From: Auraticoccus monumenti
Lineage (GTDB): Bacteria; Actinomycetota; Actinomycetes; Propionibacteriales; Propionibacteriaceae
Assembly (NCBI RefSeq): GCF_900101785.1
Contig: NZ_LT629688.1
Location: 434,001 to 498,000, forward strand
DNA length: 64,000 nt
Direction of reading: 5' to 3'
Shown here: piece after piece, positions 30,457 to 32,610 of the stretch
Numbering within the stretch: the first letter of the stretch is position 1
Layout of the letters: each line of letters starts with the position of its first letter
The notes under the pieces: generated by a model
Databases searched by the model: none
What the model was told of the DNA's origin: nothing
The model's input: only the letters and a program-made list of their open reading frames with translations
Translations under genes and position numbers: made by a program

Positions 30457-31041
30457 ATGGGCTTCACCCGAGCCGAGCTGGAGTCCTTCCGCGACGCCGT
30501 CGTGCCCGACCTGGTGGGGCCGGGTCTGCGGCTGCTGTTCGTGGGGATCAACCCCGGGCTGTGGACCGCCGCCACCCGGACCCACTTCGCCCACCCCGGC
30601 AACCGGTTCTGGCCGGCGCTGCGCCGGGCCGGGGTGGTCGACGTCGACGTGGACCGCTCGACCGGCTTCACCGAGGACGACCGAGCGGCCGTGCTGGCCC
30701 GGGGCATCGGCATCACCAACCTGGCCCCACGGGCCACCGCACGCGCCGACGAGCTGACCCGCGAGGAGCTGCGGGAGGGGTTCGCCCGGCTGGAGGCCAC
30801 CGTGACCGAGCACCGGCCGGGGGTGGTGGCGGTGGCCGGCATCACCGCCTGGCGGACCGCCACCGGACGTCCGCGCGACCGCCTCGGCCGCCAGGACCAG
30901 GAGCTGGCCGGAGCCGCCCTCTGGCTGGTGCCGAACCCCAGCGGGCTGAACGCCCACGAGACCCTGGACTCCCTGGCCCGCGCCTACGCCGCCCCCGCCG
31001 TGGAGGCGGGTCTGCTCCCCTTCCCCACGACCGACGCCTGA
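30457..31041 (+). CDS. mug: G:T/U mismatch-specific DNA glycosylase (Mug/TDG family)
   Basis: The 194-aa repair enzyme removes uracil or thymine mispaired with G. The catalytic motif LLFVGINPGLWTA has the essential Asn, followed by HFAHPGNRFWPALRRAG and the lesion-recognition loop VPNPSGLNAH. ATG 30457 lies 5 nt beyond the GH20 stop, so translation may be coupled. Length and motifs match the family. Confidence 0.93.
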   Translation: MGFTRAELESFRDAVVPDLVGPGLRLLFVGINPGLWTAATRTHFAHPGNRFWPALRRAGVVDVDVDRSTGFTEDDRAAVLARGIGITNLAPRATARADELTREELREGFARLEATVTEHRPGVVAVAGITAWRTATGRPRDRLGRQDQELAGAALWLVPNPSGLNAHETLDSLARAYAAPAVEAGLLPFPTTDA

Positions 31042-31132
31042 CCCCCCGCCCCGCCTGACCCGTCCGTCCCGTCCCCGCGAGGCCCTGCCTGCGAGGGCCT
31101 GCCTGCGCGGCCCTGCCCCGAGTCCGTGCCCG

Positions 31133-31211
31133 GCGAGATCCCACGTTGCCCCGTCTAGGCACACCTAGCCCCGTCTATAGGCGGGGGGACGTGGGTGCAG
31201 ACGGGGCAACG
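31133..31211. repeat. 79-bp structured repeat, copy A
   Basis: This copy matches copy B (31407-31485) at 72 of 79 positions. The ends CGTTGCCCCGTCT (31144-31156) and AGACGGGGCAACG (31199-31211) are perfect 13-bp inverted repeats. Between them sit CTAGG-CACA-CCTAG (31155-31168) and CCCCGTCTA/TAGGCGGGG (31169-31186, one mismatch). The fold would be a three-way junction. It is followed by about 20-bp tandem GGGGCAACG units to 31249. Confidence 0.85.
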
Positions 31212-31406
31212 CGGACGTGATGGGGCAACGTCGGTCGTGACGGGGCGAAGGGCCCGCGTAGAGACGGCCCTGCTCTCCCTCGGACGGCGGCGGCGCTCCA
31301 CCCTGGCCCGCCTCACCCACGGCCCGCGGCCAGATCGGCACGCCGCGCCCGCCTCGCCCCTGACCCGTCCCGGCCAGCCCAAACACGCCCCGGGCGACCC
31401 CTCCCC

Positions 31407-31485
31407 GCGAAATCCCACTTAGCCCCCTCTAGGCACACCTAGCCCCGTCTATAGACGGGGGTACGTGGGCGCAGACGGGGCAACG
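31407..31485. repeat. 79-bp structured repeat, copy B
   Basis: This is a direct-orientation copy of 31133-31211. The outer left arm has decayed (CTTAGCCCCCTCT), but the inner hairpin CCCCGTCTATAGACGGGG (31443-31460) is a perfect 18-bp palindrome, and CTAGG-CACA-CCTAG is kept. Keeping or restoring pairing in the inner hairpin while the outer arm changes hints at selection on that hairpin. Confidence 0.85.
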
Positions 31486-31567
31486 TCGGTCGCGTCGTGG
31501 TGGCGCGCCGGGGGGATTCGCGCTGAACTCTCCGTATCGGTTGCCGGTGGACGGACCTTTCGTGGCG

Positions 31568-31582
31568 TACAATATGAATTGT
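31568..31582 (+). promoter_or_regulatory. Possible -10 element with overlapping palindrome
   Basis: TACAAT (31568-31573) is a near-perfect -10 hexamer. It overlaps ACAAT-ATGA-ATTGT (31569-31582), an inverted repeat with 5-bp arms. No good -35 at 16-18 bp is visible. It lies about 100 bp before the GNAT gene in an unusually AT-rich stretch. Confidence 0.4.
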
Positions 31583-31680
31583 CGTCGAAGCCGGTATCAC
31601 AAGAACTTCTTTCCGCTCAATGGTCACTTTGTCGCTCGAAACCGTTGATTCTCTTGGCGAGGGGGTGACACCCTCACGGC

Positions 31681-32610
31681 ATGCCCCTTCCTGAGCCCTC
31701 CTCGTCGACGCCTGCCACCACCGTCCGTCCGGCCCGTGACGGTGAGCATCTGCCACCGGACGTGCCCCCGCTGCGACCCAGCAGCGACGACCCCTGGCGT
31801 CGCAGCCTCGTCGCCGAGCGCGACGGGGTCGCCGTGGGAACCGCCACCATCGCCCTGGCCGCCGTGACCGACACCTACTTCTGCGAGGTCCACGTCACCG
31901 AGCCCCTCCGTCGGCAGGGGATCGGGACCGAGCTGTACCGGGCGGCCTGCACGGCGGCGGCCCGCCCGCTGCCGGTGATCGGCCGCGCGATGGGGTCCCA
32001 GCCGCTGAGGCGGCAGTTCGCCGAGTCGATCGGGTGCGAGGTGGCGGTGCACTGCCCCGAGCCCTGGGCCGACCCGACGACTGAGCCGTGGCGGCGGTGG
32101 ATCGACGAGCACCCCGTTCCGGCGGGCTACCGGGTGGCGCCGGTGCGCGAGCACGATCCGGCGGCGGTCGAGGCCGCCTGGAGCAGCTACTTCACCTGGT
32201 CCCACACACCGTTCGGGGACGTCCGCACCGAGCGGCTGCCCCAGGCGTGGCTCCGCTACAGCGCCGGGCTCGACCGCGACCTGTCCATGGTGGCGAGCGA
32301 CGCCCACGGTCAGCCGGTCGCCCTCAGCCTGGTGTCCCCCGACGTCTGGGACGGTCGGACGCTGGTGGTCAGCGAGACGGTGCAACGCGACCAGCCCGCC
32401 GGCACGACGCTGCTGCAGGCGGTCGTCGCCGCGTCGCTGCGGGTCCTGGGCCAGCGCGGCACCCGGCTGGTCGAGCTCGAGGGCCACAGCACGGACACCC
32501 ACTCCCCCGAGCTGGTGGCCAGCCTGCCCCCGCACGAGGCCGACCCGATGGACCTGCTGCGGCTCCGACGCCTCCCCGGCACGCCCGCGGCTGTCGGAGC
32601 GGGTCGTTAG
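31681..32610 (+). CDS. GNAT family N-acetyltransferase
   Basis: The 309-aa protein has an N-terminal GNAT domain with the acetyl-CoA-binding motif LRRQGIGTELYRAA (about residues 78-92), and a second, weaker GNAT-like half (about 150-300: VREHDPAAVEAAW, LVVSETVQRDQPAGTTLLQA, LVELEGHSTDTHSPEL). Tandem-GNAT layout is common in actinobacteria, for example mycothiol synthase, but the key features of MshD are not clear here. The acceptor is unknown. An imperfect hairpin (31659-31675) lies just before the ATG. Confidence 0.82.
   Translation: MPLPEPSSSTPATTVRPARDGEHLPPDVPPLRPSSDDPWRRSLVAERDGVAVGTATIALAAVTDTYFCEVHVTEPLRRQGIGTELYRAACTAAARPLPVIGRAMGSQPLRRQFAESIGCEVAVHCPEPWADPTTEPWRRWIDEHPVPAGYRVAPVREHDPAAVEAAWSSYFTWSHTPFGDVRTERLPQAWLRYSAGLDRDLSMVASDAHGQPVALSLVSPDVWDGRTLVVSETVQRDQPAGTTLLQAVVAASLRVLGQRGTRLVELEGHSTDTHSPELVASLPPHEADPMDLLRLRRLPGTPAAVGAGR

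Follow-up and report, generated by a model that had tools for sequence, protein, structure and literature searches.

Closest described systems

REP-type repeats are known, to our knowledge, with one enzyme class, the RAYTs. RAYT genes are single-copy and bracketed by their own REP type, every paralog having a different repeat as its partner (PMC3116915, PMC3733652). The AbiEi proteins of AbiE type IV toxin-antitoxin systems have been proven to repress their own expression and to bind inverted repeats of about 23 bp, of which Rv2827c of Mtb binds four (PMC7319586). The locus presented here, a pair of repeats at 31133-31485 of the window (the whole 64,000-nucleotide stretch that was analysed), invites comparison with both. 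The two repeats are probably non-autonomous members of a REP-like family that is served by one AbiEi/Vsr-like partner gene elsewhere in the genome, and sequence comparison is suggestive of a hitherto undescribed counterpart to the established REP-repeat/transposase systems. No prior description of DUF559/AbiEi proteins with repeats, or of REP/RAYT in Actinobacteria, was found in the open-access literature.

Two repeats and their units

An earlier note on this DNA described copies at 31133-31211 and 31407-31485, directly repeated and identical at 72 of 79 positions, copy A having 13-bp inverted ends and copy B a perfect inner hairpin. All of this holds: the inverted ends of copy A are exact (CGTTGCCCCGTCT at 31144, AGACGGGGCAACG at 31199), the hairpin of copy B (CCCCGTCTATAGACGGGG) starts at 31443, and the direct repeat reaches 83 bp at 90% identity (31129-31211 and 31403-31485). 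The natural repeat unit, however, is not a 79-bp element but a palindromic module of 72 bp, assembled from four 16-bp units. Module A (31142-31213; 64.3 bits, E 4e-17), in register with 26 other modules, has two units on the forward strand (CACGTTGCCCCGTCTA, 31142-31157, unit scan score 27.1; CACCTAGCCCCGTCTA, 31162-31177, score 24.1) and two on the reverse strand (CACGTCCCCCCGCCTA, 31178-31193, score 18.4; CGCGTTGCCCCGTCTG, 31198-31213, score 16.5). Module B, 274 bp downstream of A (31416-31487; 64.7 bits, E 3e-17), has CACTTAGCCCCCTCTA (31416-31431, score 24.5) and CACCTAGCCCCGTCTA (31436-31451, score 24.1) on the forward strand, followed by CACGTACCCCCGTCTA (31452-31467, score 20.6) and GACGTTGCCCCGTCTG (31472-31487, score 21.4) on the reverse strand. 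About two more units at a pitch of roughly 20 bp form a degenerate tandem tail 3' of module A on the reverse strand (31216-31254; GATGGGGCAACG..., GACGGGGCGAAGG), recognised by sequence inspection and repeat search as a pattern match at 31218 with 2 mismatches and as repeat D2.

Upstream of the pair lies a uracil-DNA glycosylase-superfamily gene (30457-31041, forward strand; Pfam UDG E 2.5e-19), whose stop codon is 101 bp 5' of module A; downstream, about 190 bp 3' of module B, is a GNAT acetyltransferase-like gene (31681-32610, forward strand; Pfam Acetyltransf_1 E 1.4e-9) that is missing at this site in a genome of the same genus (G001). Directly 5' of module A, three CCCGCGAGGCCCTG-like 14-bp repeats stand head-to-tail (31074-31117), and the stretch between module B and the GNAT gene (31545-31660; tacaatatgaattg...) is unusually AT-rich against a very GC-rich genome.

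Both window copies, folded as single DNA strands, do better than 200 of 200 shuffles (z -4.7 and -3.8), and many more copies occur in the genome, which bears out the view that the structure is not due to chance. The three-way junction that had been proposed is a possible fold but not the minimum-energy one, which is a single long imperfect hairpin. Competition between inner and outer stems does arise, as a consequence of the repetition of the same 16-bp unit, and the arrangement of units resembles an array with four protein-binding sites. The suggestion of a small structured RNA was not supported: an Rfam scan gave no match, and across the 27 complete copies in the genome dyad-symmetric cells are Watson-Crick in 75.5% of cases against 74.7% after column shuffling, with 368 of 2000 shuffles reaching the observed value. 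Because symmetric module positions do not covary, an RNA selected for pairing is unlikely; the module pattern fits independent protein sites, and each module looks, from its sequence, like an array of four putative ones.

Modules across the genome

When copy A was searched against the window's own genome (G000; 4,461,688 bp in one contig, with all genome-wide counts resting on sequence searches), many dispersed matches were found. They include 27 complete, indel-free 72-bp modules, both window repeats among them, and one further rearranged copy at 1412201. Four units of consensus CACnTnGCCCCnYCTA make up each module in the arrangement >> << at 20-bp pitch, and over the 27 aligned modules the unit offsets are invariant (0 and 20 forward, 36 and 56 reverse, with the dyad between TA and TA). 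The GCCCC core is almost invariant across all units. A model built from sequence only gives complete modules 58-74 bits and nearly everything else at most 28, the rearranged copy and partial matches excepted, and information content drops near background at the module edges.

The copies are mostly intergenic. Pairs are frequent, at 161-187 bp from start to start, and a spacing of 172-176 bp recurs in two further genomes (G133 and G147). Some modules have tandem tails at 20-21 bp pitch, the longer ones at 1081.7 and 3759.2 kb. One tail (G000:C1:1081772-1081990; L065 9773-9991) comprises 11 units, all on one strand, with a pitch of 20 or 21 bp that is suggestive of a preserved helical phase. At G000:C1:1051000 (L064 from about 10000), a run of the heptamer GTGCGGG follows immediately 3' of a module. 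Most module sites are found between 0.17 and 2.09 Mb, within the first half of the contig, and beyond 3.2 Mb there are two clusters only.

A partner gene bracketed by modules

One gene in this genome is bracketed by modules (G000:C1:2090293-2091255), with a module pair upstream and further modules on the 3' side. Homologous genes in G133 and G147 are bracketed likewise, which brings the number of such genomes to three. A family-wide model search recovered the same module layout with another core in G133 (GCACC) and in G147 (CTTCGCCCC), together with weak single matches in G149 and G083. At the sensitivity of the sequence model, modules are absent from nearly all of 198 family genomes; the 99%-complete G001 has neither modules nor partner gene. 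Exact-pattern and protein scans of the genome_contigs collection found nothing. Most close homologs are bracketed by their own diverged modules, with 19- or 20-bp pitch and other cores, and paralogs within one genome are bracketed by modules of completely different sequence.

The partner product is a winged-helix protein of AbiEi type whose C-terminal domain has a putative Vsr/DUF559-like (PD-(D/E)XK-type) nuclease fold. Its AlphaFold model (mean pLDDT 88.4, pTM 0.85) has the AbiEi antitoxin 6y8q as its best PDB match in Foldseek (E 8e-5), with weaker matches to Vsr endonuclease (E 0.19) and the I-Bth0305I catalytic domain; the Vsr-like similarity is weak, at E 0.2-0.9 and probability 0.7-0.85. 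PADLOC AbiEi models match residues 13-180 (E 7e-15), and Pfam AbiEi_4 is found in 8 of 12 homologs, L114 falling below the cut-off; DUF559 (E 0.037) and MTES_1575 (E 0.0097) match weakly, in one homolog each. Nuclease-type residues are conserved, E197 in 35 of 35 homologs and D230, E241, D243 and K247 in 33-34 of 35. One homolog (L120, G083:C7) has ECHG for EFDG and QL for EK, and similar repeats still stand on both of its sides (z 14.5). No DDE, HUH or serine recombinase domain was found.

Recurrence across Actinomycetes

A profile of 12 homologs finds matches at E <= 1e-20 in 255 of the 394 genomes sampled from the class. Matching upstream and downstream flank repeats (z above 6) are present at 29 of 32 homolog loci, the best-scoring matches rather than a random sample, versus 0 of 32 when outer flanks at these loci are compared; 3 of the 32 lack matching repeats on both sides, and in a control of 60 other genes the maximum z was 6.3. 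The 80-bp flanking repeats of G307 and of G377 are each dispersed in at least 40 copies, and across 16 copies the G307 repeat has sharp ends at positions 0 and 79. Some homologs, that of G307 for example, lie between inverted repeats of about 80 bp that are also dispersed without the gene. Tsukamurella tyrosinosolvens provides two more cases: WP_074850915.1 (flank z 38), with its repeat at 10 places in the organism's records, and WP_074851054.1 (flank z 30), with its repeat at only 3.

Flank similarity tracks protein identity (Mantel r 0.58, 0 of 2000 permutations). The correlation comes from pairs with more than 50% identity and is therefore partly due to common descent of entire loci. The pairing of each gene with a private repeat is nonetheless well supported by these flank comparisons. 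No homolog of the partner gene was found in phage records or viral contigs. Carriage on plasmids was considered and set aside: the 3 matches are all "plasmid" records of one Tsukamurella strain, and they look like mislabelled chromosome contigs because the two inspected (NZ_LR134465.1 and NZ_LR134451.1; L217, L218; T. tyrosinosolvens NCTC13231) carry the chromosomal housekeeping genes rpmG, hadA and tatB.

Comparison with known systems

The likeness to REP/REPIN-RAYT systems (REPtrons) is one of organisation. Both consist of short imperfect palindromes between genes, often paired or clustered, and in both a distinct gene is bracketed by the same repeats, with several paralogs per genome that each have their own repeat type. 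The components differ. In place of a HUH/Y1 tyrosine transposase, the partner combines an AbiEi winged helix with a putative Vsr-like fold; the Y1_Tnp/RAYT-class transposase domain (PF01797) has 0 matches in G000 and G001, while control genomes were positive. Modules consist of four 16-bp units with a pitch of 19-20 bp and lack a GTAG or CGTC hairpin foot; the 27 aligned ones end CAC.../...GTG (or GTC). With both the RAYT enzyme and the hairpin foot tags absent, the system would work like REP-RAYT without being a member. The earlier label of "REP/BIME-type" is thus apt for dispersed copies tied to a bracketed gene and is not supported as a statement of family membership, the partner being unrelated.

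Resemblance to AbiE (AbiEi; Mtb Rv2827c) resides in the N-terminal fold of the partner and in the sites. AbiEi and Rv2827c sites, two or four inverted repeats per promoter, can be likened to modules, and by this analogy the binding of Rv2827c to four repeats resembles the four-unit module. Unlike AbiE, the partner has an extra C-terminal Vsr-like domain, its repeat sites flank both sides of the gene and are dispersed in the genome, and no adjacent AbiEii/DUF1814 nucleotidyltransferase toxin gene was evident among the neighbour proteins inspected in G000, G133 and G147. IS elements with MITE derivatives offer a parallel in the G307 arrangement of a gene between inverted repeats with gene-less copies elsewhere; in contrast to IS elements, none of the recombinase domains named above was found, no target-site duplication is evident, and no genome was seen to carry several near-identical copies of the gene itself. 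To Vsr and the EDxHD homing endonucleases (I-Bth0305I) the link is weak C-terminal fold similarity with conserved acidic residues and a lysine, but the partner lies outside introns and inteins and goes with multi-copy palindromes.

Evidence for possible movement

The unit at 1127174-1127446 is a reverse-complement copy (about 90% identical) of the module pair that precedes the partner gene (2089970-2090242). It comprises 26 bp, a module, a spacer of about 100 bp and a second module, and the two copies are 963 kb apart. Flanks of other module loci are unrelated, short low-scoring matches apart, and local tandem duplication explains the copies within clusters. A stretch of about 600 bp with three modules at the RNase J locus is missing from G001, where both flanks are preserved. 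This is the absence of a whole cluster rather than the precise gain of one module, and it could instead be a deletion in G001. No clear target-site duplication was seen, including in the comparison of the RNase J cluster with G001, and no known transposase signature was found at module ends. The groEL locus was unusable as an empty site because its two G001 flanks are on different contigs.

Proposed mechanism and alternatives

We infer that the partner binds, cuts and mobilises the modules. Tentatively, these loci could represent an undescribed class-wide mobile or selfish system, in which one AbiEi-Vsr-like protein recognises, cuts and spreads private palindromic modules, a REP-RAYT analogue with a separate origin in toxin-antitoxin and repair-nuclease components. 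Each 16-bp unit would bind one protein monomer through the AbiEi domain, and the >> << array would assemble a multimer whose nuclease domain may cut the module or nearby DNA; repair or transfer might then place single modules or pairs of them at further intergenic positions. Clusters also enlarge through local tandem duplication. A second protein class with private repeats would provide an independent test of how populations of repeats are maintained. Its homologs occur in about two thirds of the Actinomycetes genomes sampled, and it would also suggest a function for a large protein group whose only annotation is now "AbiEi antitoxin" or hypothetical; it might yield new sequence-specific nucleases with a target that can be read from the flanks of the gene.

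It is unlikely that the modules are instead operators, through which an AbiEi-like regulator controls its own promoter and a dispersed regulon, with the nuclease-like domain incidental or a sensor. The proven autorepression by AbiEi proteins on inverted repeats (PMC7319586), the module pair upstream of the partner gene in G000 and the several modules within about 200 bp of a start codon would all suit such a role. It accounts poorly for the modules that bracket the 3' side of the gene, for the 11 units in one tandem tail, and for copy numbers of at least 40 with sharp repeat ends; by our own tally, moreover, the genes around 16 module sites are convergent at 5, co-directional at 10 and divergent at 1. 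Neighbouring genes have no functional relation, and the conservation of nuclease-type residues also counts against a regulator.

Highly improbable is a housekeeping role in which the modules bind a protein of chromosome organisation or segregation, as the sites of Noc, SlmA or MatP do. In its favor are the strictly helical spacing, the symmetry of the multi-site arrays and the intergenic location, yet such sites would hardly be absent from G001 and, within the model's sensitivity, from nearly all family genomes, or be clustered in position, or be entirely different from one paralog of the bracketed gene to the next. Action as RNA, in the form of bidirectional terminators or mRNA-stabilising intergenic hairpins, is very doubtful despite strong predicted hairpins and many modules 26-170 bp past a stop codon, for the modules lack a U-tract as well as covariation, and their conservation follows unit positions rather than paired positions.
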